Of a stretch of DNA of 64,000 nt, positions 4,975 through 49,741 are shown in pieces; position 1 is the stretch's first letter, and each line of letters starts with the position of its first letter. The DNA is from Streptomyces sp. NBC_01591 (GTDB taxonomy: Bacteria; Actinomycetota; Actinomycetes; Streptomycetales; Streptomycetaceae), in NCBI RefSeq assembly GCF_035918155.1, contig NZ_CP109327.1, positions 3,224,001 to 3,288,000 on the forward strand, in the 5' to 3' direction. The translations under genes and the position numbers were made by a program. A model generated the notes under the pieces. That model was not told where the DNA came from, made no database searches, and saw only the letters and a list, made by a program, of their open reading frames with translations.

Positions 4975-7080
4975 ATGACGATGTTCGACACGGTTCTGGT
5001 CGCCAACCGCGGCGAGATCGCGGTACGGGTCATCCGCACGCTGCGGGAGCTGGGCGTCCGCTCGGTCGCCGTCTTCAGCGACGCGGACGCGGACGCCCGG
5101 CACGTCCGGGAGGCCGACACGGCGGTACGGATCGGGCCCGCCCCCGCCGCCATGAGCTATCTGAGCGTGCCCGCGCTGCTGGACGCGGCCCGTCGCACCG
5201 GCGCGCAGGCTGTCCACCCGGGATACGGATTCCTCGCCGAGAACGCGGGCTTCGCGCGGGCGTGCGCCGAGGCGGGGCTGACCTTCATCGGCCCGCCCGC
5301 CTCCGCCATCACGCTGATGGGCGACAAGATCCGGGCCAAGGAGACGGTCGCGGCGGCCGGGGTCCCGGTGGTGCCCGGCTCCTCGGGCAGCGGGCTCACC
5401 GACGGCCGGCTGGTCGACGCGGCCCGCGAGATCGGCATGCCGGTGCTGCTGAAGCCCTCGGCGGGCGGCGGCGGCAAGGGCATGCGGCTGGTGCGCGACG
5501 AGACCCTGCTCGGGGACGAGATCGCGGCCGCCCGCCGCGAGGCGCGGGCCTCGTTCGGCGACGACACCCTGCTGGTGGAGCGGTGGATCGACCGCCCCCG
5601 GCACATCGAGATCCAGGTGCTGGCGGACGCCCACAGCAACGTGGTCCACCTCGGCGAGCGCGAGTGCTCGCTCCAGCGCCGCCACCAGAAGATCATCGAG
5701 GAGGCGCCCTCGGTCCTGCTCGACGGGGAGACCCGGGCGGCGATGGGCGAGGCGGCCGTCCAGGCGGCCCGCTCCTGCGGCTACGTGGGCGCCGGCACGG
5801 TGGAGTTCATCGTCCCGGGCAACGACCCCGCCTCGTACTTCTTCATGGAGATGAACACCCGCCTCCAGGTCGAGCACCCGGTCACCGAGCTGATCACCGG
5901 CCTGGACCTGGTGGAGTGGCAGCTGAGGGTCGCGGCGGGCGAGCAACTCCCTTACGGACAACAGGACATCACACTCACCGGCCACTCGATCGAGGCCCGG
6001 ATCTGCGCCGAGGACCCGGCCCGCGGCTTCCTGCCGTCCGGCGGCACGGTCCTCGCGCTGGACGAGCCGCAGGGCAACGGGGTCCGGACGGACTCCGGGC
6101 TCGGCGAGGGCGGCGCGGTCGGCAGCCTGTACGACCCGATGCTGTCGAAGATCATCGCGTACGGCCCCAACCGGGCCACCGCCCTGCGCCGGCTGCGTGC
6201 CGCGCTCGCGGACACGGTGATCCTCGGCGTCCCGACCAACGCCGGTTTCCTGCGCCGACTGCTCGCCCACCCGGCGGTGGTGGCGGGCGATCTGGACACG
6301 GGCCTGGTGGAGCGCGAGGTGGACGGGCTGGTGCCGGAGGGGGTGCCCGAGGAGGTGTACGCGGCGGCGGCGCTGCTGCGGCGGTCCGCCGGTGCGGACG
6401 GGTCCCGGGCCGATGCCTCCGCCGGTGCGTCCGGCTGGGTCGACCCGTTCTCGGTGGCGAGCGGCTGGCGACTCGGCGGCACCCCGGCCCGCACGGTGCT
6501 CGACTTCCGGCTGCCGGGCCACGACCCGGTGCAGGTCTCGCTGCGCTCCTGCCCGGCCGGTACGGAGCTGACGTTCGGCCATGTCGGGGAGGGCGCACAG
6601 CCGCCGGAGCCCGTGACGGGTGCCTGCGGTCCGCTGGCCCCACTGCCCGGCGGCAGGGAGACGGCCAGGCTGGTCGAGGTCTCCGGGCACCGCCTCACCC
6701 TCGAACTCGCCGGTGTCACCCATGCGTTCACCCACGCCGCCTCACCGGACGGCGTATGGCTCGGCCGGGACGGCGACAGCTGGCACGTACAGGATCACGA
6801 CCCGGTGGAGGCGTCGCTGGCCGGCGCGGGCCGTTCCGGGGCGGACACGCTCGCCGCGCCCATGCCCGGGACGGTCACCGTGGTGAAGGTGGCGGTCGGG
6901 GACGAGGTCGTGGCCGGACAGAGCCTGCTGGTGGTGGAGGCGATGAAGATGGAACACGTCATCTCCGCCCCGCACGCCGGGACCGTGACCGAACTGGATG
7001 TCAGCGCCGGCGCCACGGTCGCCATGGACCAGGTCCTGGCCGTGGTGGCCCCCGTCGAGGCTCCCGGGGAGGAAGCATGA
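4975..7080 (+). CDS. Biotin carboxylase/biotin carrier (alpha) subunit of acyl-CoA carboxylase
   Basis: 701 aa. The start is ATG 4975, with GAGGA just upstream, in preference to an in-frame ATG at 4981. Residues 1-450 form biotin carboxylase: VLVANRGEIAVRVIRT, the glycine-rich ATP loop SAGGGGKGMRLV, and EMNTRLQVEHPVTE. A less conserved linker follows. The C-terminal biotinyl domain ends the protein, with VEAMKMEH and biotin-accepting Lys at about residue 658. It charges biotin with CO2 for the beta subunit encoded 8 bp upstream. Its stop overlaps the lyase start (ATGA), so the four genes form a tight operon. The pairing fits methylcrotonyl-CoA carboxylase. Confidence 0.93.
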   Translation: MTMFDTVLVANRGEIAVRVIRTLRELGVRSVAVFSDADADARHVREADTAVRIGPAPAAMSYLSVPALLDAARRTGAQAVHPGYGFLAENAGFARACAEAGLTFIGPPASAITLMGDKIRAKETVAAAGVPVVPGSSGSGLTDGRLVDAAREIGMPVLLKPSAGGGGKGMRLVRDETLLGDEIAAARREARASFGDDTLLVERWIDRPRHIEIQVLADAHSNVVHLGERECSLQRRHQKIIEEAPSVLLDGETRAAMGEAAVQAARSCGYVGAGTVEFIVPGNDPASYFFMEMNTRLQVEHPVTELITGLDLVEWQLRVAAGEQLPYGQQDITLTGHSIEARICAEDPARGFLPSGGTVLALDEPQGNGVRTDSGLGEGGAVGSLYDPMLSKIIAYGPNRATALRRLRAALADTVILGVPTNAGFLRRLLAHPAVVAGDLDTGLVEREVDGLVPEGVPEEVYAAAALLRRSAGADGSRADASAGASGWVDPFSVASGWRLGGTPARTVLDFRLPGHDPVQVSLRSCPAGTELTFGHVGEGAQPPEPVTGACGPLAPLPGGRETARLVEVSGHRLTLELAGVTHAFTHAASPDGVWLGRDGDSWHVQDHDPVEASLAGAGRSGADTLAAPMPGTVTVVKVAVGDEVVAGQSLLVVEAMKMEHVISAPHAGTVTELDVSAGATVAMDQVLAVVAPVEAPGEEA

Positions 7081-26789: not shown

Positions 26790-28148
26790 ATGGTGTCGAC
26801 AGGGGCAGTTCCCAACCTCGCCTTCCGGCGGCTGCGCGGCCCGCGCTCCGCCGGGGAGTTCGCTGCCGCGGTACGCAGATCCGCCCGCGAGATCGGCGAG
26901 CAGGTCGCGTGCGACGCCCGGTACATCGGACGCGTGGAGTCCGGGGAGATCCGCTGCCCCAACTACGCGTACGAACGGGTCTTCCTGCACATGTTCCCCG
27001 GAACGACCCTGGCGGACCTGGGCTTCTCACCGCGTGAATCCGTACGCGGCCGGGGAGCGCGGGCCACTGCCGAAACTCCACCGCCCCCCACGCTACACAG
27101 CGACACCGACGAGGAGAGCGACGTGCTGCGTCGCGTATTCATGACCGGCGGCACCACCGCGATGGCGACCGCGACCCTGGGCCTGGGCCTCGGTGGCACC
27201 TCCGCCGCTGCCGCCGCCCTGCCCGATCCGCACAGGGTCGGCGAGACCGAGGTGAGCGCCGTCGAAAAGGCGGTGCGGCAGATCCGGCTGCTCGACGACC
27301 GGCACGGCGGTGACGGCCTGTACCGCAGGGCGTCCCAGCCGCTGCGGGCGGCGTACGCGCTGCTCGACTCCGGGACGGCCACCAAGCGCTCCACCGCCGA
27401 CAGGCTGCATGCCGGAGCGGGCGAGCTGGCCATCTCGGTGGGCTGGCTGGCCCATGACTCGGGCCGGCTCGAGGACGCCCGCTCGCACTATGCGGAGGCG
27501 CTCGCCACGGCGCGGGTGGCCGGTGACGCGGGGCTGGAGGCGCATGCGTTCTGCAATGCGTCGTTCCTGGCCCGGGACACCGGGCGGCCCCGCGAGTCCG
27601 TGCGCGCGGCGGAGGCCGGACAGCGGGCGGCGCAGCCGCTGGGCTCGCCCCGGCTGCTGGCGCTGCTCGCGCTGCGGGAGGCGGGGGGCCGGGCGGGGCT
27701 CGGGGACCGTACGGGCTGCGACCGGGCGATCGGCCGGGCGCACACCGCGTTCGGGCGCGGTCCGTCCGACGCCGATCCGGAATGGATGACCTTCTTCCGG
27801 GAGGCGGAGCTGGAGATGCTGGAGGCGCAGTGCTGGTCGGCGCTGGGCGACTGGTCGCGGGCGGCCCGGCACGCGCGGCGGGCCACCCGGCTCCAGGACC
27901 CGCACTTCACCCGGAACATGGCGCTGTACCGGGCCGAGCTGACCTGGGACCTCGCCCGCGCGGGCCGGGCCGCGGAGGCGGCGACGACGGGCCATCAGGT
28001 GCTGGACCTGCTGGACCGCGTCCAGTCGACCCGCATCCGGGCGATGCTGGCCCAGGCGGTGGGGGTGCTGATGCCGCAGCGGGACGTGGCGGAGGTACGG
28101 GGGTTCCTGGAGCGGTACGCGGAGGCGACGGAGGCCGCCACCGCGTAG
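26790..28148 (+). CDS. XRE/TPR regulator of the NsdA type
   Basis: 452 aa from ATG 26790 with an AGAGAGG ribosome site. The N-terminal 70 residues resemble a helix-turn-helix (SAGEFAAAVRRSAREIGEQV, ACDARYIGRVESGEIRCPNY). A hydrophobic Ala/Gly stretch at about residues 110-145 (MTGGTTAMATATLGLGLGGT) follows. From residue 160 the protein is alpha-helical TPR repeats (RLEDARSHYAEALATARVAG, WSRAARHARRATRLQDPHFT). This layout resembles NsdA/NsdB-like regulators that repress sporulation and antibiotics in S. coelicolor. The hydrophobic patch is odd for a DNA-binding protein and could be a membrane or Tat-like segment. Target genes are unknown. Confidence 0.75.
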   Translation: MVSTGAVPNLAFRRLRGPRSAGEFAAAVRRSAREIGEQVACDARYIGRVESGEIRCPNYAYERVFLHMFPGTTLADLGFSPRESVRGRGARATAETPPPPTLHSDTDEESDVLRRVFMTGGTTAMATATLGLGLGGTSAAAAALPDPHRVGETEVSAVEKAVRQIRLLDDRHGGDGLYRRASQPLRAAYALLDSGTATKRSTADRLHAGAGELAISVGWLAHDSGRLEDARSHYAEALATARVAGDAGLEAHAFCNASFLARDTGRPRESVRAAEAGQRAAQPLGSPRLLALLALREAGGRAGLGDRTGCDRAIGRAHTAFGRGPSDADPEWMTFFREAELEMLEAQCWSALGDWSRAARHARRATRLQDPHFTRNMALYRAELTWDLARAGRAAEAATTGHQVLDLLDRVQSTRIRAMLAQAVGVLMPQRDVAEVRGFLERYAEATEAATA

Positions 28149-28163
28149 ACGCGAGAGGCCCTG

Positions 28164-28235
28164 GGCCGTGTCCGTGAAGTCCCGCCTGGCTCGCGACGCC
28201 CTCCGGGCGTACGGCGGGACGTTACGGACACGGCC
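28164..28235. repeat. 72-bp imperfect palindrome (MITE-like or terminator)
   Basis: GGCCGTGTCCGTGAAGTCCC (start of a 23-bp arm, 28164-28186) pairs with 28213-28235 at 21 of 23 positions, with a 26-nt loop. The right arm ends at the first base of the stop of the convergent histidine phosphatase gene. Arms of this type recur in Streptomyces genomes near insertion sequences. Here it can also end transcription from both sides. Confidence 0.65.
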
Positions 28236-28831
28236 TAGTGGTCCAGGTGGCCCGTGTCGTTCCAGCGTTCGATCGCGGGCGCGCCGTACGCCCATCCCAG
28301 CACCGACAGCGACGTCGGATCGAGCCGGATGCGCGCCGCGAACGACACGTCCTCGCCGAGCCACCGCGCCCCCAGCGCCCGCAGGATGTGACCGTGGGCG
28401 AAGACCAGCACATCGCGGTCGGCCGAGCGGGCCCACGCCACGATCTCGTCGGCGCGGGCGGACAGCTCGGCCAGGGTCTCCCCCTCCGGCACCCCGTCAC
28501 GCCAGATGAACCAGTCCGGACGGATCGCCTTGATCTCGGCCGGGGTCATCCCCTCGTACGCCCCGTAGTCCCACTCCATGAGCGCGTCCCACGGCTCGGC
28601 CCGGTCCGCGAATCCCGCGATCTCGCAGGTCTCCCTGGCCCGCAGCAACGGGCTGGTGCGTACTTCCAGGCCCGGCAGGTCCGCCCACGGCCTGCGCCGC
28701 AGCCGCTCGCCGAGGAGCTTCGCGCCCGCACGGCCGGTGTCGAGCAGCGGGATGTCCGTCCTGCCGGTGTGATTGCCCTTGACGGACCATTCCGTCTGGC
28801 CGTGCCGGGCGAGCAGGATACGCGGTGCCAT
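28235..28831 (-). CDS. Histidine phosphatase (phosphoglycerate mutase-like)
   Basis: 198 aa from ATG 28831 with AGGGAG upstream. The N-terminal [20 protein letters not shown] carries the RHG motif with the phospho-accepting His (about residue 9). The second catalytic His is in [20 protein letters not shown]. Acidic [15 protein letters not shown] is the usual proton donor segment. It removes phosphate from small metabolites; the substrate is not predictable. The C-terminus GHLDH ends right at the palindromic element. It is divergent from the PAP2 gene. Confidence 0.9.
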
Positions 28832-29077
28832 GACGGCTCTCCCTGAACTGAGATCTGAGGCCGGTGATCGGGACGACACGGATCATCCGGTTTTCCCATC
28901 ATCGCGCACGTGATCGCGAGGCAACCTTCGGGGCCGAACCGACGTCCCACTCTGCGCGGAGAAATCTGTACGCACCCGGGGCTCCGGAAAGGACCCCTGG
29001 CCGAACCCCGACCGACCCACGCCGTACGGTTGAACGCCCGCCGTCGGTCGCATGAACACATGATGGAGAGCTTCCGG

Positions 29078-30070
29078 ATGCAGCATGCCAGCACCGCGCC
29101 CGTGCCGCGCCCGCGGCCCCGTTGGTGGACCGAGCTGCCGCTGCTGGCTCTGGTGTACGCGGCCTATTCGGCGGGCCGGCTGGTGGCGCGCGGCGACGTG
29201 TCCACCGCCGTCGACCACGGACTGAGCATCCTGCGCCTGGAGAAGGCGCTCCACATCAACGCCGAGCACCCGCTCAACCGGCTGTTCACCGCGCACCCCT
29301 CGATCGGCATACCCTCCGACTTCGCGTACGCGTCCCTGCACTACCTCGTCACCCCGGCCGTCCTGATCTGGCTCTTCCGCCGCCGCCAGGAGGTGTACCG
29401 CAGGGCCCGCACCTGGCTGATGACCTCCACGATGTTCGGCCTGATCGGCTTCACCCTGCTGCCGACCTGCCCGCCCCGGCTGCTGGAGGCCCAGTACGGC
29501 TTCGTCGACACGATGGCCCAGTACAGCTCGTACGGCTGGTGGGGCACGGAGGCCAGCGCCCCGCGCGGCATGGGCGGAATGACCAATCAGTACGCGGCGA
29601 TGCCGAGCCTGCACGTCGGCTGGGCACTCTGGTGCGGAATCCTGCTGTGGCGCCACAGCAAGAACCCGTACATCCGGGCCGCCGGCATCGCCTACCCCCT
29701 GATCACCACGTTCGTGGTGATGGGCACGGCCAACCACTACCTCCTCGACGCGGTCGCGGGCGCCGCCGTGATGGGCGTCGGAGCCCTGCTGGCCCGGCCC
29801 GTGATGCGTCTCGCGGACCGGATCGGTGACCGGGTCCAAGCGCGCTTCCCACGGTTCGCCCCGGTCGCGAAGTCCCCGATTGTCAGTGCCGGATGCAAGA
29901 CTTCCGCGGGTGAGCGAATCCCTGGCCAGCGGACCACCTCCGCAGACTCCCCCGATGCCGCGGCATCGGCCGACGCAGGCGCCTCGGCCGGTCGCGTACC
30001 CCGGGCCGACCCAGGCGCCCCCGCAGGAGCGGGAGCAGCGGGGGACGACGCTCCGGCAGCGGCTCGCTGA
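29078..30070 (+). CDS. PAP2/inositol-phosphorylceramide-synthase-like membrane phosphatase
   Basis: 330 aa from ATG 29078, which has GGAGAG 7 nt upstream; ATGs at 29060 and 29063 lack this. Six hydrophobic segments start with LPLLALVYAAYSAGRLV. Catalytic motifs are AAMPSLHVGWALWCGILLW (PSxH) and GTANHYLLDAVAGAAVMGVG (HxxxD), the PAP2_3/AUR1 form. It would dephosphorylate or transfer lipid head groups at the membrane. The last 55 residues are Ala/Gly/Pro-rich and overlap the next gene by 161 bp in another frame. In that stretch the nuclease frame has better codon use, so the PAP2 tail is probably a read-through extension. Confidence 0.85.
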   Translation: MQHASTAPVPRPRPRWWTELPLLALVYAAYSAGRLVARGDVSTAVDHGLSILRLEKALHINAEHPLNRLFTAHPSIGIPSDFAYASLHYLVTPAVLIWLFRRRQEVYRRARTWLMTSTMFGLIGFTLLPTCPPRLLEAQYGFVDTMAQYSSYGWWGTEASAPRGMGGMTNQYAAMPSLHVGWALWCGILLWRHSKNPYIRAAGIAYPLITTFVVMGTANHYLLDAVAGAAVMGVGALLARPVMRLADRIGDRVQARFPRFAPVAKSPIVSAGCKTSAGERIPGQRTTSADSPDAAASADAGASAGRVPRADPGAPAGAGAAGDDAPAAAR

Positions 30071-31142
30071 GCTGCGAGGACCGACCGTCCCGCCTCGTCC
30101 GCTGGACGCCCGCGCGCTGGCCGCCCTCGCCGCCAACCCCGGCTGCCGGCGCCGCGCCCTGCTGGACGGCGCCGGGGTGGACAAGGCGGTGCTGGCCACG
30201 GCGCTCGGTTCGCCGGCCCCCTTCGGGCAGTCGCAGTTCGCCTTCGTCCGGGGCAACGCCTTCGAGGCCAAGGTCAAGGCCGACGGCGGCACGGAGCTGA
30301 TGCGGCTGCTGCACGAGCGCCTCGGCGGCGGTGGTGAGGCGCCGCGCGAGGTCTCGGTGCCCGATCTGACCGCGGCGGGCCCCGAGGGCCGCGCGGCGCG
30401 TACGGCGCTCGCTCTGCGGGAGGCGACCGAGGCGGGTGGCTGGGCGCTGCTGGACCACCCGATGCTGGCCCTGGAGGTGGCGGGCTCCCCCGCCTATCTG
30501 GAGCCGGACGCGGTGGCGGTGCACCCCGACGGCACGTGGACGGTCGTCGAGATCAAGTCCTTCCCCATGATCGACGGCTCGGCCGACGCGGCGAAGGTCG
30601 GCGCGGCGGCCCGGCAGTCCGCCGTCTATGTGCTGGCGCTGGAGCGGATCGCGGAGCTGACCGAGGGCGCCGAGGTCGGCCACCGGGTGCTGCTGGTCTG
30701 CCCGAAGGACTTCTCCAATCTGCCCACCGCCTCGGTCGTCGACGTACGCAAGCAGCGCGCGGTCACCCGCCGTCAGCTGACCAGGCTGACCCGGATCGAG
30801 GACATCGCGGCGACCCTGCCCGAGGGCACCACCTTCGACCTGGAGTGCTCCCGGCAGCAGCTCGACGCCGCGGTCGAATCGGTCGGCGCGGCGTACGCCC
30901 CGGAGTGCCTGGCCGCCTGCGAGCTGGCCTTCCACTGCCGGGCGAAGGCACGCGAGGCCGGTGCGGTGGAGGCGCTGGGGCGGAGTGTGCGCGGCGAGCT
31001 CGGCGGGCTGACCACGGTGGGCGAGGTGCTGGCGGCCGCCGCGGGCAAGGAGGGCGACCCGGCGGATCCGACGGTCGCGGCCCTGCGGCGCGCGGCGGCC
31101 CTGCGCGCCGAGGCGCTGGAGGGCGGTCCGGCATGTCGCTGA
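29910..31142 (+). CDS. Cas4/AddB-like Fe-S PD-(D/E)XK nuclease
   Basis: 410 aa from GTG 29910 (VSESLAS). A Pro/Gln-rich N-terminus is followed by the nuclease core: RGNAFEAKV (Glu about 119), LEPDAVAV (Asp 200), VVEIKS (Glu 214, Lys 216) and RQSAVYVLAL (QxxxY), the RecB-family signature. One Cys before the core (GCRRRALL, about 79) and three after (CLAACELAFHC, about 333, 337, 343) match the 4Fe-4S clamp of AddB, Cas4 and Dna2. It probably degrades or trims DNA ends. Its stop overlaps the next gene by 10 bp, and an SF1 helicase ends the operon, so the proteins likely act as one complex. I know of no studied example of this operon. Confidence 0.75.
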   Translation: MSESLASGPPPQTPPMPRHRPTQAPRPVAYPGPTQAPPQEREQRGTTLRQRLAELRGPTVPPRPLDARALAALAANPGCRRRALLDGAGVDKAVLATALGSPAPFGQSQFAFVRGNAFEAKVKADGGTELMRLLHERLGGGGEAPREVSVPDLTAAGPEGRAARTALALREATEAGGWALLDHPMLALEVAGSPAYLEPDAVAVHPDGTWTVVEIKSFPMIDGSADAAKVGAAARQSAVYVLALERIAELTEGAEVGHRVLLVCPKDFSNLPTASVVDVRKQRAVTRRQLTRLTRIEDIAATLPEGTTFDLECSRQQLDAAVESVGAAYAPECLAACELAFHCRAKAREAGAVEALGRSVRGELGGLTTVGEVLAAAAGKEGDPADPTVAALRRAAALRAEALEGGPACR

Positions 31143-32743
31143 TCAGCACCCTGGCCCGACTGGAGGCCGTGGAGAGCGGCCGGGCGCAGCCGACGACGAC
31201 GGTCCGGCACCGCCATCTCACCGACCGGCCTCTCGTCGTGGTTCCGCTGACCACGGCCGGTGAGGCGGGTGCCCCGCTGGGCGCGCTCGTCGGAACGGAC
31301 CGGGAGGCGCCCCGGCTGCTGGCGGTCTCGCAGCCGCGCGACCGGGATCTGCGGTTCGCGTTCCTCGCCGAGCTGGCCGAGGCGGTGCTGCCGCACATCG
31401 AGGCGTACGAGGATGTCGTCGAGCCGGCCGAGCGCAACGAGACCGATCCGGGTACCGGGAAGAAGGTCAAGGTCGAGGTCGAGCTGTGCGCGGACGCGCC
31501 GCAGATCGTCGTGCCGAGCCGGGCGGGCATCGAGTTCGTCCGGCTGCTGGGTCGCTCCATGCGGTTCCGGCGCACGGCCGAGGACGACCCCGACACCCCG
31601 TACCCCGCCCCTGCCCGGGTCCCGCTGCTGGGCCGCTGGCTGACGCACTACGGGGAGCGGGCCAGGGTGCCCGGCTCCTCGCTGCTGCTCGCCGCGACCG
31701 ATCTGCTGAACCGGCACTGGGCGACCGGGCAGAGCAGCCTGGAGGATCAGCATCTGGGTGCGCTGCTGGCCTGGATCGACGCACCGACGGGCGAGCCGGG
31801 CGCCGCGGCGGCGCTCCGTGCCGAGCTGGAGCGGGACGGCGAGGGACAGCTGCTGTGCCCGCCGGCCGGTCCGGCCACGGACCCGGCGTTCGACAACCGG
31901 CTGCTGGCGCCCGCCATCGAGAAGTACGACCGGGCGCGCACCTCGCTCGCGGCCGCCGAGGACGGTCTGGCGGCCGATGCCCGGCTCGGCGAACTGACGG
32001 CCGCCGAGCGGGAGATCAGGGCCCTGCTGGCCAGGGTGACGCGGCCGACGTGGGACGCGGTGTGGCGGGGGCTCGACCTGCTGCGGGAGCTCCCCGAGGG
32101 GTCCAGGTCCGAGGACCGCTGGACCAGGGACCGCTGGTCGTTCACCGGTCACCGGGACCGGGTGCGTTCGGGCGAGCCGCCGCAGCCGCGCCGGGACGAC
32201 GCGGTGACGGCGGCGCAGAAGCTGGCCTCGCGGGAGACGGCGCAGGCCCAGCTGGAGGCGCAGGAGGCGCTGGACGATCCGCTGGTGCTGGCCGGGCGGC
32301 GGCTGGCCGGTGAGGCGTTCGTCGCCGAGGTGACGGAGGTGGTGATGGCGTACAGCGAGTCCAAGCGCCCGTCGCCGCGCCCGCTGGTCACGGTCCGTAC
32401 GGACGAGCACCCGCATCTCGGCGAGCGCACCAAGGTGTACCGCTCGCTGGACGGCAGGCCGCAGACCGCCGAGTTCGTGGAGTACGCCGAGCCGACGGAC
32501 GGGGGCGCGCCGCTGCTGGTGCTGCGGATCCTCGACCGGATGGGCCGGAGCAAGGAGCCGGCGCCGGGTTCGGTGCCCGAGCCGGGCGACCGGATCGCCT
32601 GGACGCTCTTCGAGCACGATCAGCGCGGCGGCCCGAAGCTGCCGGACCCGGAGGAGACGCCCTGGACGCACGGCGGGCCGCCGGGCGCCGCTGCCGGGCA
32701 CGCCGAGAGCCCCGATCCCGTGACCGCGGAGGACCTTCTGTGA
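31133..32743 (+). CDS. Unknown middle protein of the nuclease-helicase operon
   Basis: 536 aa, starting inside the nuclease gene (10-bp overlap) and ending inside the helicase start (GTGA). It is soluble and acidic, with a beta-rich N-terminus (RPLVVVPLTTAGEAGAPLGA, RFAFLAELAEAVLPHIEAYE), a helical middle (YDRARTSLAAAEDGLAADAR, WDAVWRGLDLLRELPEG) and a C-terminal beta segment (KVYRSLDGRPQTAEFVEYAE, LLVLRILDRMGRSKEPAPGS). I recognise no domain. Tight overlap on both sides implies a fixed ratio with nuclease and helicase; it may be a scaffold or substrate-recognition subunit. That role is inference. Confidence 0.65.
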   Translation: MSLISTLARLEAVESGRAQPTTTVRHRHLTDRPLVVVPLTTAGEAGAPLGALVGTDREAPRLLAVSQPRDRDLRFAFLAELAEAVLPHIEAYEDVVEPAERNETDPGTGKKVKVEVELCADAPQIVVPSRAGIEFVRLLGRSMRFRRTAEDDPDTPYPAPARVPLLGRWLTHYGERARVPGSSLLLAATDLLNRHWATGQSSLEDQHLGALLAWIDAPTGEPGAAAALRAELERDGEGQLLCPPAGPATDPAFDNRLLAPAIEKYDRARTSLAAAEDGLAADARLGELTAAEREIRALLARVTRPTWDAVWRGLDLLRELPEGSRSEDRWTRDRWSFTGHRDRVRSGEPPQPRRDDAVTAAQKLASRETAQAQLEAQEALDDPLVLAGRRLAGEAFVAEVTEVVMAYSESKRPSPRPLVTVRTDEHPHLGERTKVYRSLDGRPQTAEFVEYAEPTDGGAPLLVLRILDRMGRSKEPAPGSVPEPGDRIAWTLFEHDQRGGPKLPDPEETPWTHGGPPGAAAGHAESPDPVTAEDLL

Positions 32744-34074
32744 CGGCCGTATTCGACCCGGGCGCCCAGGCCGCGCGGGCGACCGACGCGATCCTCGCCG
32801 ACACCCTGGGCGGTACGTCGCGCGGCATCGTGGTGGACTCCCCGCCGGGCGCGGGCAAGTCGACGCTCGTGGTGCGCGCCGCCCTCGAACTCGCGTCGGC
32901 CGGGCATCCGCTGATGGTGGTCGCGCAGACCAACGCCCAGGTCGACGACCTGGTGGTGCGGCTGGCCGAGAAGGATCCGGGGCTGCCGGTCGGCCGGTTG
33001 CACAGCAATGACACCGACCCGTACGACAAGGTGCTGGACGGGCTGGCCAACGTACGGAAGTCGGCGAAGGCGTCCGATCTCGCCGGGCTCGACGTCGTCA
33101 TCTCGACGGCAGCGAAGTGGGCCCATGTGAAGAACGTCGAGCCGTGGGGCCACGCGATCGTCGACGAGGCGTACCAGATGCGTTCGGACGCGCTGCTGGC
33201 CGTCGCGGGGCTCTTCGAGCGGGCGCTGTTCGTCGGCGATCCCGGCCAGTTGGACCCGTTCTCCATCGTGGGCGCGGACCAGTGGGCGGGGCTCTCGTAC
33301 GACCCGTCCGCGAGTGCGGTCTCCACGCTGCTCGCGCACAATCCCCAACTGCCGCAGCACCGGCTGCCGGTGTCGTGGCGGCTGCCCGCCTCCGCCGCGC
33401 CGCTGGTCTCGGACGCGTTCTACCCGTACACCCCGTTCCGCAGCGGTACGGACCACGGCGACCGGCGGCTGTCGTTCGGTGTGGCGTCCGACGGCTCGGC
33501 CCCGGACCGGGTGCTGGACGAGGCCGCGGAGTCCGGCTGGGGTCTGCTCGAACTCCCGGCCAGGCACACCCCGCGCACCGACCCGGAGGCGGTGCGCGCG
33601 GTGGCCCTGGTCGTCCGCCGGCTGCTGGACCGGGGCGGCGCGGCGACGAGCGAGCGCTCCCCCGACCCGGTTCCGGTGACGGCGGACCGGGTCGCGGTCG
33701 GCACCGCCCATCGCGACCAGGCCGCGGCGGTGCGGGCGGCGCTCGCGGAGCTGGGTGTGAGCGGCGTCGCAGTGGACACGGCGAACCGGCTCCAGGGCCG
33801 CGAGTTCGATGTGACGGTGGTCCTGCACCCGCTCTCCGGCCGCCCGGACGCCACGGCCTTCCACCTGGAGACGGGCCGGCTCTGCGTGCTGGCTTCGCGC
33901 CATCGGCACGCCTGCATCGTGGTGTGCCGGGCGGGCGTCACCGAGCTGCTGGACGAGCACCCGTCGACGGAGCCGGTGCAGCTGGGCGTCACGGTGAAGT
34001 TCCCGGACGGCTGGGAGGCGAACCATTCGGTGCTGGCGCATCTGGCGGAGCACCGGGTGCGGTGGGAGAGGTGA
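32740..34074 (+). CDS. SF1 helicase, Dna2/UPF1-like
   Basis: 444 aa, GTG start overlapping the previous stop, with GGAGGA upstream. Walker A VVDSPPGAGKSTLVV lies at about residues 31-45, Walker B AIVDEAYQM at about 139-147, motif III FVGDPGQLDPFS, then motif V VDTANRLQGREFDVTVVL and motif VI LASRHRHACIVV. The set and order match SF1B helicases of the Dna2/UPF1 group. The protein is short because the nuclease is a separate polypeptide. Together with the Fe-S nuclease gene it looks like a split Dna2 or AddAB-type DNA-end processing machine, for repair or for defence. Confidence 0.82.
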   Translation: MTAVFDPGAQAARATDAILADTLGGTSRGIVVDSPPGAGKSTLVVRAALELASAGHPLMVVAQTNAQVDDLVVRLAEKDPGLPVGRLHSNDTDPYDKVLDGLANVRKSAKASDLAGLDVVISTAAKWAHVKNVEPWGHAIVDEAYQMRSDALLAVAGLFERALFVGDPGQLDPFSIVGADQWAGLSYDPSASAVSTLLAHNPQLPQHRLPVSWRLPASAAPLVSDAFYPYTPFRSGTDHGDRRLSFGVASDGSAPDRVLDEAAESGWGLLELPARHTPRTDPEAVRAVALVVRRLLDRGGAATSERSPDPVPVTADRVAVGTAHRDQAAAVRAALAELGVSGVAVDTANRLQGREFDVTVVLHPLSGRPDATAFHLETGRLCVLASRHRHACIVVCRAGVTELLDEHPSTEPVQLGVTVKFPDGWEANHSVLAHLAEHRVRWER

Positions 34075-34173
34075 CGGCGGCCGTACCCCCGGTCCGGCAG
34101 TGCCCCGGGCCCTCTTGCGGGACGTTGGACAATGGAGGGTGGCCAGCGGGCCGACCCAAGGAGGCAACACCAC

Positions 34174-34515
34174 ATGGCACAACCCGAGCGGAACGAGCAG
34201 CAGCGGCTGCGCCCCGCGCCCCTGCTCTTCGAGCCGTCGGCGGCAGTCGCCGATCCTGAGCACTTCTTCGACCTGGAGTCGATGGACGATCCGAAGGAGT
34301 TGCTGTCCCGCGCCACCGAGCTGACCGTGGCGTTCCGTGCCGCGACCGACCGGGCGGTCGAGTTCCAGGCGATCGCCGCCGCCCAGCTGGCCGATCCGCG
34401 CCGGTTCGACCGGCTCACGACCGCGGACATCGCGCGGCGTGCGGAGTGGACCGAGGACTATGCCAAGAAGATGGTCGAGTTCGGCCGGAGCCTGCTGGGC
34501 GGCGCCGCGCCCTGA
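34174..34515 (+). CDS. Small conserved protein downstream of the helicase
   Basis: 113 aa from ATG 34174, with AAGGAGG 9 nt upstream. It starts MAQPERNEQQRLRPAPLLFE and then forms a helical region: DDPKELLSRATELTVAFRAA, FQAIAAAQLADPRRFDRLTT, ADIARRAEWTEDYAKKMVEF. The last part resembles a small helix-turn-helix but is not diagnostic. It lies 99 bp after the helicase on the same strand and may be the operon's last gene or stand alone. Confidence 0.65.
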   Translation: MAQPERNEQQRLRPAPLLFEPSAAVADPEHFFDLESMDDPKELLSRATELTVAFRAATDRAVEFQAIAAAQLADPRRFDRLTTADIARRAEWTEDYAKKMVEFGRSLLGGAAP

Positions 34516-34720
34516 CGGCCGTACGGACCTGGGAGCGGCCGTACGGGCCAGGCAACGGCCGTCGTGCGCGGCCGGAATTCCCCGGCAGGCCGCCCGGTCC
34601 TGACTCCGGGTAGAACCACTGGCATATGCCCGGGCGCAAGATACTCCCCCTCACCCCGCCCTGTCCCGGTTTCCGACAACTCTCGGAATCCACTTGATCA
34701 CTCCCGGTAGACATGTCGGC

Positions 34721-35437
34721 ATGACCGCATGGCTGCCCGACAATTCGACCCTGCACCACGGCGACGCCCCCCACCACGGCGCCGATGTCTTCGCCGTTCT
34801 GCGGAACCAGGCCGCGAACCACACGGCGCATGTCACGGCGGCCGGTGCCGCCTGGCTGGCCGGCGCCGCCGCCTATCCGCGCAGCACACTGGCCCAGTGG
34901 GAGGCACGCCCCTCCTCGCCCGGGGTGCTGCCGTGCGGGTCGGCCTTCGACGTGGTGAACGTGCCCACTCTCTTCGGGCGCCGGATGCTGGAGCACCTGT
35001 GGTCCGACGGCCCCGGTTCCGGGCCGGTGGCCACGCACCGCGGACGGATGCTGCTGTTCGCCTCCCCCGGCACCGCCCAGCGGCTCCCCTCGCTGCTCGA
35101 CTGGGAGGAGTGGGGCGGCGGGCCCGAACCGCGGGCCGCCATGGGACCGCGGGGGCATGACGACGAGGGTGACGGCAACAGCAAGGTCCCGCCACTGCTC
35201 TGCCACGGCACCGGGGACGCGGTGACCGTCCCGCCCCTGACCTGCACCTCCACCACCCCCGGCCCCCGCTGGCTGGTCGCCCCCGACACCCGCAGCCCCT
35301 GGCTGCCGGGCCCCGACGTACTGCTCTGGGCCTGTGTGCGGGTGACCCGGTCGGCGCCCTCGTCGGTGGCCCGGAATTCGATTTTTCCTCCCGCCGATCC
35401 GGATGCTAATGTCTACGACGTCAGCAGGCGCCGCTAG
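34721..35437 (+). CDS. Primase/polymerase-like (Prim-Pol family) protein running into tRNA-Lys
   Basis: 238 aa from ATG 34721. Sequence such as AAAYPRSTLAQWEARPSSPG, VLPCGSAFDVVNVPTLFGRR, GPVATHRGRMLLFASPGTAQ and LLCHGTGDAVTVPPL resembles a set of Streptomyces proteins annotated from memory as bifunctional DNA primase/polymerase N-terminal domain proteins. The metal-binding acidic triad of active primases is not evident, so it may be a degenerate relative. The stop lies 10 nt inside the tRNA-Lys gene (SRRR is encoded by tRNA sequence), so the tRNA promoter lies inside the coding region. Its position after the nuclease-helicase operon may be functional or chance. Confidence 0.5.
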   Translation: MTAWLPDNSTLHHGDAPHHGADVFAVLRNQAANHTAHVTAAGAAWLAGAAAYPRSTLAQWEARPSSPGVLPCGSAFDVVNVPTLFGRRMLEHLWSDGPGSGPVATHRGRMLLFASPGTAQRLPSLLDWEEWGGGPEPRAAMGPRGHDDEGDGNSKVPPLLCHGTGDAVTVPPLTCTSTTPGPRWLVAPDTRSPWLPGPDVLLWACVRVTRSAPSSVARNSIFPPADPDANVYDVSRRR

Positions 35438-35501
35438 CTCAGTTGGTTAGAGCAGCTGACTCTTAATCAGCGGGTCCGGGGTTCGAGTCCCTGGCGGCGC
35501 A
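35428..35501 (+). tRNA. tRNA-Lys (CTT), copy 1
   Basis: The 74-nt cloverleaf has acceptor GCGCCGC/GCGGCGC, D-loop AGTTGGTTA, anticodon loop CTCTTAA (anticodon CTT) and T-loop TTCGAGT; CCA is not encoded. It is identical over its length to the copies at 42280 and 49660. The flanking GTCAGCAG just upstream is shared by all three. Confidence 0.97.
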
Positions 35502-35507
35502 CAGACG

Positions 35508-35541
35508 GAAGAAGCCCCCCGCGGAAGCGAGGGGCTTCTTC
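35508..35541 (+). terminator. Terminator after tRNA-Lys copy 1
   Basis: GAAGAAGCCCC pairs with GGGGCTTCTTC, with a small inner CGC/GCG stem and GGAA loop. It lies 6 nt after the tRNA and 38 bp before the end of the convergent protease gene. Confidence 0.85.
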
Positions 35542-35578
35542 GTGTTCGCGGGGGCTGGACGGGAGGGACCAGCCCCTT

Positions 35579-36820
35579 CTACGTTCCGGTGGCGATCCGG
35601 ACCGTCCAGGCACCCGACGGCGTCCGGTCGGCGACCTCGACCCTCGTGTGTCCGCCGGGGATGCTGTACGTCTCACCGACCCGCAGCGGGGCGTCCGCGA
35701 GCGGCGCGTAGACCGAGCGGTCCCAGCAGGCGTCGGTGCGGGGGTGGGTGTCGATGACGTCGACCGGGCCGCCGCCGGACGGGGTCCCGTTGCGCACCCG
35801 GTAGAGCAGGACGCCTTCGGTGCAGGTCGTGCTGTCGTTGCCGGTGGCGCTGCGGGCCTCGATGGCCACGGCACTGCCCTCACCGGTCCTGATCACCGCG
35901 AGCCGGGTGCCGAGGGAGGCCCCGGGCTCGGGCGCGGCGGCCATCGGCTCCAGGGTGACGTCCCGGCTGCTCTGGACGCAGACCACCTGCCTGCGGTCCA
36001 GCCAGCCCAGCTTCCACTTGTGCCAGCCGAAGAAGTCCGGCGCGAGTCCGAACTGGCTGCCCATCACGTCCCAGTCGCCGACGTAGGTGTCCCAGTCGCC
36101 CTTGCCGTCGGACGGCCGGTGGTAGAGGTCCGGCAGGTCGAAGACGTGCCCGGTCTCGTGGGCCAGCACATTGCGGTCCGGCGGGTGCTGTTCGAAGACG
36201 GTGACGACGCGGCGGATGTCCGTACCATCGGCGCGCAGCGGCTGGTCGAAGTTGACGACCTTGGTGGCGTCGGAGTCGACGCCCGGGGCGTCCGGGTCGG
36301 CGACCAGATAGACGATGTCGTACCGGGAGAAGTCGACCTTCGGATCGGCCGCGGAGACGGCGTCGCGCAGATAGGTGCCGCGCCGGTCGTTGTCCCAGTC
36401 ACGGCGTATGCCGTACTGGCCGGACGTCTTGGGCATCCGGATCCACTGCCGCATCGGGTGCGGGCGCAGGGTGAACTTCCCGTACGAGGCGCGCTGGAAG
36501 AACTGAGTGGTGGCGGGGAAGTGGTCGGCGGCGAGTTCGCCGGGGGTCATGGCGGGGCTGTGGTCCGGGAAGGCGAGGAAGATCACGACCGCGTCGAGGG
36601 GGTGGTCGGGGCGGGGGTAGGCGCCGTTCCAGTCGCCCACCCCGAGCGAGTGGTGCGCCTCGGTCCGGGGCAGGGCGCAGGGTCCCGCCTCACCGGTGGC
36701 GGCCACGGCGGGCCCGGCGACGAGGGAGGTGGCAGCGAGCGCCAGAAGAGACGTCACGGCGGCGGCCACACCGCGCAGGCTCGGCCTCTCCACTCCCCCG
36801 GCTCTGTGCTGACGCGGCAC
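35579..36820 (-). CDS. Secreted M6-family metalloprotease-like protein
   Basis: 413 aa from GTG 36820, chosen because GGAGG lies 5 nt upstream. A signal peptide (VAAAVTSLLALAATSLVAGPAVA) is followed by the M6 (immune inhibitor A) domain: PLDAVVIFLAFPDHSPAMT near the start and the zinc site LAHETGHVFDLPDLYH (HExxH plus downstream acidic ligand). VGDWDVMGSQFG contains the Met-turn. A beta-rich C-terminal region (PGGHTRVEVADRTPSGAWTV) ends the protein. It probably acts as an extracellular peptidase. It is divergent from cdgA. Confidence 0.88.
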   Translation of the reverse strand: MPRQHRAGGVERPSLRGVAAAVTSLLALAATSLVAGPAVAATGEAGPCALPRTEAHHSLGVGDWNGAYPRPDHPLDAVVIFLAFPDHSPAMTPGELAADHFPATTQFFQRASYGKFTLRPHPMRQWIRMPKTSGQYGIRRDWDNDRRGTYLRDAVSAADPKVDFSRYDIVYLVADPDAPGVDSDATKVVNFDQPLRADGTDIRRVVTVFEQHPPDRNVLAHETGHVFDLPDLYHRPSDGKGDWDTYVGDWDVMGSQFGLAPDFFGWHKWKLGWLDRRQVVCVQSSRDVTLEPMAAAPEPGASLGTRLAVIRTGEGSAVAIEARSATGNDSTTCTEGVLLYRVRNGTPSGGGPVDVIDTHPRTDACWDRSVYAPLADAPLRVGETYSIPGGHTRVEVADRTPSGAWTVRIATGT

Positions 36821-37202
36821 ATCTACCTCCGGGTGCGAGATGCGGTCACGCACCCACCCTGTGATGATTTGAGGCTTTCGTCCTGTTGAGCTGCCCCAGT
36901 CGAGTCAGCGGCCGACCAGGGCCCTCGTCCTCACGGACAGTCACAATCGATCACCGAGGTATTGCAGAAGAACGCAATCGCTCAGAAACGATCGGTTGCG
37001 GGCAAATCGGAGCCGCGGGCGAATGGCCCATGCGGGGCGAACGCGGGGCTTGGAAGCGTCGGGCGCTGGAATGGCCGACGCACCAGCCTCTATGCTTCAC
37101 CAGGCTTTCCCGCGCGGTTTCCGCCTCCGACCCAGGCGCTCCACGCGGCGGGCCAGTCCGGCCACACCTGTTCAGGACGGAACTGCACGGCGGGAGCGAA
37201 CG
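36821..37202 (+). other. Intergenic region between the metalloprotease and cdgA
   Basis: This 382-bp divergent region shows no convincing gene. The in-frame extension of cdgA back to 36996 is basic and low-complexity, so I treat it as non-coding. BldD is reported to control cdgA in S. coelicolor, but I could not find a clear BldD box by eye. The inverted repeat TCAC-N11-GTGA at 36846-36864 is the only symmetric element noted, and its spacing does not fit BldD. Confidence 0.4.
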
Positions 37203-39071
37203 GTGAGCGGAACCTCCGAAGAGCCCGGGCTCGCGGCGGGCAGACCCCGGCATTCCGCAGGACCACCGACCACGGATCGTCACGCTCCGTGGCCCCGTGC
37301 CGGGGCCGGGAGCTCCGAGCCGCACGGCTACCGGGCCGCGTTCCGGGCCGCCGCGCTCCCGATGGCCGTCGTCGATCACGAGGGCCTGGTCGTCACCGCC
37401 AACGAGGCCCTCGGCGGCTTCCTCGGCCGCTCCGCCGCGGCGCTGACCAACCAGTCCGCGGCCGATCTGCTCGACCTCGCGGCGGACGGCCGCACCTGGC
37501 ACGCGTACCGCGAGGTGCTGCACGGGCGGCGCTCACGGTTCCGCTGCACCCACCGGCTCAAGCACCCCGACGGACGCGCGCTGTGGGCCGAAGTCACCGT
37601 CGTACCGATGCCCGAGCAGGAGGCCTGCGCGGGCGACGGCTCCGGGCCCGGCCGGGTGCTGCTCTCCGTCTCGGACATCAGCGACCGGCGCGAGCTGCAG
37701 AAGCGGCTGCGCCACCTCCAGATGCACGACCCGGTGACCCGGCTGCCCAACCGGACGCTGTTCTTCGAACGGCTCTCGGCCGCCCTGGAGACCCCGGCGT
37801 ACGATGACAGCGCCTCCGGCCATGGCCGGGTCGGACTCTGCTACCTGGATCTGGACGGCTTCAAGGCCGTCAACGACACGATGGGCCACCGGATCGGCGA
37901 CCGGCTGCTCGCCGCCGTCGCCGCACGGCTCACCGACTGTGCGGCCCAGGACGGCCCGCACCGCCCCGGCGCCCATCTCGTGGCGCGCCTCGGCGGCGAC
38001 GAGTTCGCGATCCTGGTCGAGGACTCCGCCGGTACGCAGCAGCTCACCGATCTGGCCCGCACGGTCCTGGCCGCACTGCAGCAGCCCTTCGACCTGGCCG
38101 GGCAACGGCTCACCGTGTCCGCCTCGATCGGAGTGGTGGAACGGTCCGTGAAGGGCACCTCCGCCACCGGTCTGATGCAGGCCGCCGACACCACGCTGTA
38201 CTGGGCGAAGGCGGACGGCAAGGCCCGCTGGACGGTCTTCGACCCGGAGCGCAACGCGCACCGGATGACCCGGCAGACGCTCTCGTCCAATCTGCGGCCC
38301 GCCGTGGAGCGCGGCGAGTTCACCATCGAGTACCAGCCGCTGGTCGACATGGCCGATGGCGTCGTGTGCGGGGTGGAGGCCCTGGTCCGCTGGAACCATC
38401 CCCAGTTCGGCATGCTGTCGCCGAATCGGTTCGTTGCGATCGCCGAGGAGGACGGCTCGATCGTCCAGCTCGGCCGGTGGGTGCTGCAGTCCGCCTGCCG
38501 CCAGGCCCGGCGCTGGCAGCTGGAGCACCCCGCCGATCCGCCGCTGTTCATCAGCGTCAATGTCGCCGTACGCCAGGTCTGGGACTCCGACCTGGTCACC
38601 GATGTGGCGGAGATCCTCGCCGAGACCGGCCTCGATCCCTCGCTGCTCCAGCTGGAGCTGACCGAGTCCGCGGTGATGGGCTCGGCGGGCCGCCCGATCC
38701 AGGCCCTCCAGTCGCTCAGCAACATGGGCGTGCGGATCGCCATCGACGACTTCGGTACCGGCTACTCCAACCTCGCCTATCTGAGCCGGCTGCCGGTCTC
38801 GGTGCTGAAGCTTGACGGCTCGTTCGTACGCGGCTTCCGCTACGACGACGGCGCCCACCCGAGCCCGGCCGACGAGACGATCGTCGAGGCGATGGTGCAG
38901 CTGGCGCACCGGCTGGGCCTGACCGTCACCGCGGAGTGCGTGGAGACGACCGGCCAGGCGGAACGGCTGCGCAGGATCGGCTGTGACACCGGGCAGGGCT
39001 GGCTGTACTCGCGTGCGGTCGCCCCGGAGCGGATCGCCGAGCTGATCGGCACCCGCCCGATGCAGGGCTGA
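37203..39071 (+). CDS. cdgA: PAS-GGDEF-EAL cyclic-di-GMP enzyme (CdgA-like)
   Basis: 622 aa from GTG 37203 with GGGAG 7 nt upstream. A PAS sensor domain lies at about residues 40-165 (FRAAALPMAVVDHEGLVVTA). The diguanylate cyclase domain has an intact GGDEF at about 264-268 and the substrate-binding LDLDGFKAVNDTMGH. The phosphodiesterase domain has EAL at about 392-394, DDFGTGYSNLAYL and the metal/catalytic LKLDGSFV and ECVET motifs. Both sites look active, so it may make or break cyclic di-GMP, which controls development through BldD. Synteny points to SCO2817 (CdgA). No transmembrane segments are seen. Confidence 0.9.
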   Translation: MSGTSEEPGLAAGRPRHSAGPPTTDRHAPWPRAGAGSSEPHGYRAAFRAAALPMAVVDHEGLVVTANEALGGFLGRSAAALTNQSAADLLDLAADGRTWHAYREVLHGRRSRFRCTHRLKHPDGRALWAEVTVVPMPEQEACAGDGSGPGRVLLSVSDISDRRELQKRLRHLQMHDPVTRLPNRTLFFERLSAALETPAYDDSASGHGRVGLCYLDLDGFKAVNDTMGHRIGDRLLAAVAARLTDCAAQDGPHRPGAHLVARLGGDEFAILVEDSAGTQQLTDLARTVLAALQQPFDLAGQRLTVSASIGVVERSVKGTSATGLMQAADTTLYWAKADGKARWTVFDPERNAHRMTRQTLSSNLRPAVERGEFTIEYQPLVDMADGVVCGVEALVRWNHPQFGMLSPNRFVAIAEEDGSIVQLGRWVLQSACRQARRWQLEHPADPPLFISVNVAVRQVWDSDLVTDVAEILAETGLDPSLLQLELTESAVMGSAGRPIQALQSLSNMGVRIAIDDFGTGYSNLAYLSRLPVSVLKLDGSFVRGFRYDDGAHPSPADETIVEAMVQLAHRLGLTVTAECVETTGQAERLRRIGCDTGQGWLYSRAVAPERIAELIGTRPMQG

Positions 39072-42279: not shown

Positions 42280-42353
42280 GCGCCGCTAGCTCAGTTGGTT
42301 AGAGCAGCTGACTCTTAATCAGCGGGTCCGGGGTTCGAGTCCCTGGCGGCGCA
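42280..42353 (+). tRNA. tRNA-Lys (CTT), copy 2
   Basis: Same 74-nt sequence and anticodon loop CTCTTAA as the copy at 35428. A TATTAT -10-like box lies at 42260-42265, and the shared GTCAGCAG precedes the tRNA. Confidence 0.97.
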
Positions 42354-42358
42354 CAGAC

Positions 42359-49659: not shown

Positions 49660-49733
49660 GCGCCGCTAGCTCAGTTGGTTAGAGCAGCTGACTCTTAATC
49701 AGCGGGTCCGGGGTTCGAGTCCCTGGCGGCGCA
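49660..49733 (+). tRNA. tRNA-Lys (CTT), copy 3
   Basis: Identical 74-nt tRNA with anticodon loop CTCTTAA, again preceded by GTCAGCAG. A TAGAGT -10-like box lies about 20 nt upstream. Confidence 0.97.
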
Positions 49734-49741
49734 CGCAGAGT

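Follow-up and report, generated by a model that had tools for sequence, protein, structure and literature searches.

In this report, we describe three adjacent genes of Streptomyces whose products probably constitute a single Dna2-like helicase-nuclease that is split over three polypeptides. The trio lies in a stretch of 64,000 nucleotides (hereafter, the window) from Streptomyces sp. NBC_01591, located at 3.22-3.29 Mb on the first contig of a 10.25 Mb genome. The first gene encodes a predicted iron-sulfur (Fe-S) nuclease, the third encodes a helicase of superfamily 1 (SF1), and the gene between them encodes a protein of 536 amino acids (aa). We favor the split-enzyme reading because the helicase appears to be without a 1B region, the middle protein is predicted to end in a stalk and a 1B-like barrel, and the order of the genes equals the order of domains in fused Dna2-like proteins. 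Further support comes from plasmids that pair the middle and helicase genes where the nuclease is not recognized (one plasmid of Euzebya and, as weaker cases, those of Mycolicibacterium and Rhodococcus), and from linkage to SbcCD genes in two arrangements.

If this reading is correct, a Dna2-type helicase-nuclease resides in the Streptomyces core genome under the label "hypothetical protein". The trio would then provide a natural set of separable subunits (motor, 1B/central platform and nuclease) with which to dissect the parts of Dna2. It would also give a testable guess at the nature of the central region in bacterial Dna2-like proteins.

Features of the trio are as follows. Positions are those of the window, and fractions give conservation among non-redundant homologues.

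29910..31142, +: nuclease gene, 410 aa from GTG 29910 or possibly 395 aa from ATG 29955; predicted iron-staple PD-(D/E)XK nuclease with a Cas4/AddB/Dna2-like fold
30144..30146, +: C79, first proposed cluster cysteine (33/33)
30264..30266, +: nuclease residue E119 (31/33)
30507..30509, +: nuclease residue D200 (32/33)
30549..30557, +: E214-I-K216 catalytic motif (E 29/33, K 32/33)
30615..30629, +: Q236-xxx-Y240 motif (Q 31/33, Y 32/33)
30906..30938, +: C333, C337 and C343, proposed C-terminal cluster cysteines (each 33/33)
31133..32743, +: middle gene, 536 aa; no Pfam, NCBIfam or PADLOC family above cut-off
31223..31882, +: middle residues 31-250, predicted domain like the exonuclease domain of family B DNA polymerases, without the conserved DEDD acid set
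31883..32308, +: middle residues 251-392, long helices in the model, proposed stalk
32312..32614, +: middle residues 394-494, beta-barrel, proposed helicase 1B domain
32740..34074, +: helicase gene, 444 aa; compact SF1B Upf1/Dna2-like motor
32848..32862, +: Walker A, G37-A-G-K-S41 (G37, G39 and K40 26/26)
33163..33168, +: motif II, D142-E143 (26/26)
33235..33249, +: motif III, G166-D-P-G-Q170 (D167 and Q170 26/26)
33775..33804, +: motif V, D346 to E355 (T347, Q352 and G353 26/26)
33877..33900, +: motif VI, R380 to R387 (R380 and R387 26/26)

The coordinates of the genes, all on the + strand, confirm the overlaps of 10 and 4 base pairs noted in the initial annotation. Start codons are GTG, ATG and GTG, respectively, and the GC content at third codon positions (0.92-0.93) is as usual for coding DNA here. 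All three genes have homologues, and the closest named homologues are from Streptomyces. The start of the nuclease is uncertain (GTG 29910 or ATG 29955), because the database record corresponding to it is 395 aa long, covering 96% of the 410-aa query and fitting the later start, and because the earlier start overlaps the end of an upstream PAP2 open reading frame (ORF) at 28910-30070.

Nuclease and helicase

The E, D, ExK and QxxxY nuclease residues, one N-terminal cysteine and three C-terminal cysteines listed by the initial annotation are present, and their conservation across 33 non-redundant homologues is far above chance. This alignment was made without row L014, whose chosen reading has a stop codon, and without L012. 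No Pfam, NCBIfam or PADLOC family matches the nuclease above cut-off; its structure model matches Cas4, AddAB and Dna2, which agrees with the AddB/Cas4/Dna2 iron-sulfur pattern that had been proposed. The RecB-family nuclease motifs together with the four-cysteine iron-staple pattern (an Fe-S cluster predicted from sequence) place the protein with the Dna2/Bad type.

Some relatives have altered active sites. In a Streptomyces paralogue clade (L019, L021, L037 and L109), the nuclease carries E119H, E214L and K216R, and in L100 it carries E119T and E214A. The four cysteines and the helicase motifs are kept in all of these, and no SbcD gene was found beside L019, L021, L109 or L100. The nucleases of L177 and L167 have changes at single active-site positions. 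Because catalytic residues are lost while the cysteines and helicase motifs stay, the motor and the Fe-S domain can apparently be retained without DNA cutting.

In the third protein, helicase motifs I to VI are present. At most of the motif positions checked the residue is the same in 26/26 homologues, and these include Q146 and R214. The Pfam models AAA_11 and AAA_12 match above their cut-offs, and relatives with solved structures include SMUBP-2, Dna2 and Upf1 (the absence of a family from such lists of relatives does not exclude that family). The earlier assignment to SF1, from Walker A to motif VI, is thus narrowed to an Upf1/Dna2-like type, and both expected folds are supported, that of the nuclease by a model and that of the helicase by sequence. 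Membership in AddAB or AdnAB is not indicated, as no UvrD model occurs among the helicase's 15 Pfam matches, which instead include AAA_11 and AAA_12. PADLOC 2.0.0 gave only partial matches for the helicase, to other helicase models.

Only 36 residues precede Walker A. In SMUBP-2-like enzymes, the 1B barrel and stalk (domain names also used for Dna2) occupy roughly 180 residues. Residue 31 of the helicase pairs with residue 209 of SMUBP-2, and residue 33 with residue 648 of Dna2. As judged by these alignments, the helicase is thus without the N-terminal 1B barrel and stalk region of Dna2/Upf1-like enzymes.

The middle protein as a candidate 1B region

The AlphaFold model of the middle protein (predicted local distance difference test score 82.4) places a barrel-like region near the C-terminus, and a 1B-like identity for this region, the counterpart of what is absent from the helicase ORF, is suggested by fold and by a weak profile match. 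In fold, the barrel comes closest to Sen1 and SETX, and Dna2 is also similar; the structural scores behind these assignments are moderate. A viral fold library yielded 0 matches at E <= 0.001. The initial annotation had proposed that this protein is a new subunit. To us, it resembles the piece missing from the center of a fused Dna2-like enzyme, of which one-chain counterparts exist, rather than a wholly new subunit.

The barrel's resemblance to Sen1 and SETX, together with SMUBP-2 and Upf1 among the sequence matches of the helicase, raises the question of whether the complex acts on RNA, as the Upf1/Sen1 relatives do. We regard this as very improbable, given the linkage to SbcCD and Wadjet genes described below and the fact that PD-(D/E)XK iron-staple nucleases such as Cas4, AddB and Dna2 act on DNA.

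Comparison with fused Dna2-like proteins

Proteins matching TIGR03491 above its cut-off occur in 99 of the 296 genomes sampled from the class. Fourteen stretches were fetched. Counted from the first possible start, ten of them have an ORF of 1105-1301 aa that includes a Walker A motif. Another, L079, has a 1227-aa ORF with AAA_12 and no Walker A by the pattern used, and L073, L074 and L080 have no such ORF. Four of the ten fusion ORFs were scanned, and in all four RNase_H_2 is followed by AAA_11/AAA_12.

Profiles of the three split proteins were aligned to fusion slices with hhalign, with 40 shuffled templates and reversed templates as controls. Initial, shallow alignments yielded only the helicase match; the following results are from deeper profiles. 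In global mode, the collinear fusion slice is the best match for the nuclease, for the C-terminal half of the middle protein and for the helicase, whose alignment to the fused helicases has an E-value of 9.7e-45. The nuclease scores 17.9 globally, versus at most 5.6 in the 40 shuffles (10.1 reversed); in local mode it is not above the shuffles (2/40 as high). The C-terminal half of the middle protein, which includes the proposed stalk, scores 16.5 globally against the stalk/barrel slice, versus at most 11.2 in shuffles (0/40 as high; 1.3 reversed), and 26.6 locally, versus at most 15.8. The probabilities that hhalign itself assigns to the nuclease and the middle protein against the fusions stay low (about 4-6%).

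We also considered descent of middle residues 31-250 from RNase_H_2, and do not propose it: the N-terminal part of the middle protein is not above shuffles against RNase_H_2 in either mode (10 and 12 of 40 as high), which gives no sequence proof, and none of 14 middle proteins matches RNase_H_2 (PF13482) at E <= 1.

TIGR03491 has no match at E <= 0.001 in the window's genome. Just 2/48 trio genomes also have a TIGR03491 match, versus 16 expected. Mutual exclusion is not claimed, as at the level of genera (assigned by hand) the overlap is 2/12 versus 3.9 expected (p 0.33). In the two overlapping genomes, the above-cut-off matches that were fetched are ORFs of 724 and 544 aa with no helicase; genome G107 has, in addition, a fused-type ORF that falls below the cut-off (L079).

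Distribution and gene order

Over two samples, 62 of 63 distinct genomes of the genus have the middle protein. These comprise 37/37 in the first sample, where the matches in G001, G010, G031 and G036 are partial or split, and 27/28 among the same-genus genomes listed in the second. In G676, which is 100% complete, neither the middle protein nor the helicase was found. More broadly, the middle protein occurs in 48/296 genomes of the class sample and 13/296 of the phylum sample. The window's copy of the trio is core in Streptomyces and not patchy.

Gene order was surveyed in two sets of loci. In the set of 33 selected through the middle protein, 31 loci carry the complete trio in order (only one analysis shows the middle gene of L023 clearly, and L094 has its helicase split into two pieces). 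In G261 and G638, which are the exceptions, one full-length helicase copy lies about 36 kb and about 49 kb away, respectively. The second set was selected through the helicase and consists of the best 80 of 548 loci: 71 have the order nuclease-middle-helicase, 7 of the other nine are cut by a contig end, and the remaining 2, both from Micromonospora, have the helicase without a nuclease or middle gene within about 6 kb. The usual non-adjacency that the initial annotation named as refuting was thus not observed. Relatives with all three genes reach Acidimicrobiia, Gemmatimonadota (Candidatus Palauibacter, L144) and Chloroflexota (Candidatus Viridilinea, L150). In L103, a transposase-like ORF (5809-6996, - strand; TnpB/OrfB type as judged by eye) lies between the middle and helicase genes.

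An Euzebya plasmid encodes a shorter middle protein ahead of a related helicase (36 bits, E 4.9e-11 among 262 ORFs). Plasmids of Mycolicibacterium and Rhodococcus give a weak match to the middle profile (about 8 bits, E 0.02), and the call of a middle-like protein there rests on its BLAST similarity to that of Euzebya (E 1e-11 to 1e-17). None of the ORFs in four plasmid stretches from these three genera is matched by the nuclease profile. The Mycolicibacterium and Rhodococcus stretches (L133:1019-6125 and L134:1055-6137) encode an AAA ATPase, a VWA-like protein, a small protein, the short middle-like protein and the helicase, with no recognized nuclease.

These pairings bear on a rival reading, in which the helicase is a minimal SF1 motor that needs no partner and the middle protein is a distinct subunit, either active in its own right or regulatory. 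Such an arrangement would fit the middle residues 31-250, which belong to no known sequence family, the catalytic motifs that the helicase retains, the distant helicases of G261 and G638, and the helicase-only Micromonospora loci. We consider it unlikely, because a lone motor would be missing its 1B region while the adjacent protein ends in a barrel-like fold, and because the middle and helicase genes stay paired on plasmids where the nuclease is unrecognized.

Accessory cassettes, SbcCD and Wadjet

Outside the core Streptomyces clade, the trio is often part of a larger cassette. A fourth gene, encoding a 281-aa protein, lies upstream in 52/71 copies outside this clade and in 0/28 core Streptomyces copies, counting those with enough flank. 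In L117:2318-3163, for example, the protein (P0244) is encoded upstream of the nuclease. It has only a sub-threshold match to the UVR motif, and was not found in the window's genome.

A homologue of SbcD adjoins the cassette in 14/91 loci, counted whatever their flank, and the other 77, counted only with enough flank, have none. Of the core Streptomyces loci of the first sample, this set includes only L001, L002, L006 and L022-L025; L106 and L136 are the same locus and are both included, and loci of the two samples may coincide. SbcC is also present at the SbcD-linked loci, except at L020, where SbcD is partial and SbcC was not found. SbcD is divergent to the cassette in 13 loci; in the Kibdelosporangium locus L204, SbcD and SbcC follow the helicase on the same strand. 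On a helicase tree made without the short helicases L094, L134 and L145 (L095 and L101 had no helicase), the SbcD-linkage label needs three changes, and the L204 copy stands apart from the other linked ones.

The cassette SbcD is a distinct type, with 37-86% mutual identity versus 26-35% identity to three other Streptomyces SbcD proteins. An SbcD match above cut-off exists in 18/18 genomes tested. A strong copy elsewhere accompanies the cassette copy in G033, G022, G239, G685 and G691, and in G039, G049 and G051 the cassette SbcD alone is above cut-off, with the other match below it. In the plasmid collection, the two records with the cassette SbcD type at >60% identity are two trio-bearing Streptomyces plasmids.

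On plasmid NZ_CP108489.1, the gene order is SbcC-SbcD, 281-aa gene, nuclease, middle, helicase, JetA, JetB, JetC and JetD, and the Jet genes correspond to PADLOC JetA1 to JetD1, a complete type I Wadjet system. On plasmid NZ_CP027023.1 (L117), JetA, JetB and JetC genes follow the cassette; SbcC and SbcD beside it (L117:208-2137) look broken, while the annotation gives full ORFs for the trio, JetA and JetB. In L168 and L187, the genes that follow include JetA and JetC. By similarity to the NZ_CP108489.1 JetA, this gene lies after the helicase in 4/110 loci with downstream flank, all in one clade. In G049, a broken DUF3375 stretch follows the trio.

These cassettes can be taken as support for the view that the trio, including its core Streptomyces copy, is an anti-phage or anti-plasmid defense system; defense was one of the two roles, beside DNA-end processing, that the initial annotation had suggested. 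On NZ_CP108489.1 the trio sits between SbcCD and Wadjet, Jet genes follow it in the other three loci, and three plasmid records contain the middle protein, although one of them is 11.85 Mb long. However, Wadjet adjacency alone is weak evidence of joint function, because Wadjet is present in 42% of Actinobacteria and enriched at Streptomyces chromosome ends (excerpts of PMC10482375). The few JetA linkages fall in one clade, DUF3375 has no match in the window's genome, and the middle protein has no match in 50,697 phage records. PADLOC models match neither the nuclease nor the middle protein, nor any of the 6 ORFs neighboring the trio (26790-39071), and the core status of the window's copy argues against a patchy defense island. 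A defense role for the trio as a whole is accordingly unlikely in our view, and it is not supported for the window's copy; for the accessory copies beside SbcCD and Wadjet, such a role is plausible. We recognized no paper on the trio among the matches listed from the open-licence PubMed Central literature, and the available excerpts of a BREX paper (PMC12839542) and of the Actinobacteria defense paper (PMC10482375) do not mention it.

Neighboring genes in the window

A 127-aa ORF with no known family follows the helicase (34132-34515), with 62-66% identity in Streptomyces loci L023-L025. A few genes downstream of the trio is a PAS-GGDEF-EAL protein (36996-39071), and in L095 a GGDEF-EAL-like ORF, as judged by eye, adjoins a nuclease-middle pair. 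Three identical tRNA-Lys(CTT) genes (35428-35502, 42280-42354 and 49660-49734) are spaced by about 7 kb and are possible repeated integration sites.

Proposed biologic roles

Gene order, conserved motifs, co-occurrence and linkage are observed directly; complex formation, polarity, substrate and role we infer under the split-enzyme reading, as follows. The third protein would be an ATP-driven motor with two RecA domains and no N-terminal 1B region of its own. The middle protein would supply this region in trans, with a degenerate exonuclease-like platform carrying the helical stalk and the 1B-like barrel. The first protein would be a Fe-S RecB-family nuclease sitting before the motor. Judging from Dna2 and Geobacillus Bad, we would expect the complex to load on 5'-ended single strands at junctions of single- and double-stranded DNA and move 5' to 3', cutting the strand ahead.

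For the window's copy, we favor genome maintenance, because it is core and because the neighboring ORFs have no PADLOC match; this copy might process DNA ends, flaps or forks. In accessory cassettes, the same enzyme is linked to a dedicated SbcCD copy that is likely the first-step end processor. Extra trio copies adjoin DNA-break genes and anti-plasmid genes, so the enzyme may help to deal with DNA that is broken or foreign. A more far-reaching scenario, which we offer only tentatively, is that an actinobacterial mobile cassette (dedicated SbcCD, 281-aa partner and three-subunit Dna2) opens and degrades foreign DNA together with Wadjet, as a counterpart of Mre11-Rad50 plus Dna2 resection. The core Streptomyces trio would then be a domesticated descendant that lost SbcCD and the partner, and that maintains the linear chromosome.

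Relationship to known systems

The nearest studied relative in kind, by description, is Bad of Geobacillus stearothermophilus, which like the trio combines an iron-staple RecB-family nuclease with four cysteines and an SF1B helicase (excerpts of PMC7430649). Bad is a single monomeric DNA2-like chain with a conserved central domain of undescribed structure; enzymes of its type occur sporadically among bacteria, and Mycobacteria and Rhodococcus have a second class (excerpts of PMC7430649). In contrast, the trio consists of three separate ORFs, with the nuclease and the helicase not in one chain.

The TIGR03491/RNase_H_2/AAA_12 fusions (L067-L072 and L075-L078) share with the trio the order nuclease, exonuclease-type domain, helicase, and their helicase is clearly homologous. 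They differ in being one chain, and in that RNase_H_2 is recognizable in the four scanned and its acids are conserved in the alignment, whereas the trio's middle protein is without those acids. Type I Wadjet (JetABCD) adjoins some cassettes, but its genes and families are separate from those of the trio.

Eukaryotic Dna2 resembles the trio through matches to the Fe-S nuclease, the barrel and the SF1B motor. It is a single chain without Bad's central domain, and is ubiquitous and essential in eukaryotes (excerpts of PMC7430649).

Finally, in their gene linkage the accessory cassettes recall the archaeal mre11-rad50-herA-nurA operon, in that Mre11-Rad50 (SbcCD) is linked with a motor-nuclease pair. 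HerA is another type of motor, and NurA another nuclease, than those of the trio. In the archaeal system, Mre11-Rad50 and HerA-NurA cooperate in end resection (excerpts of PMC8910471). If the trio is a split Dna2-like enzyme, the accessory cassettes would link Mre11-Rad50 to such an enzyme in bacteria.

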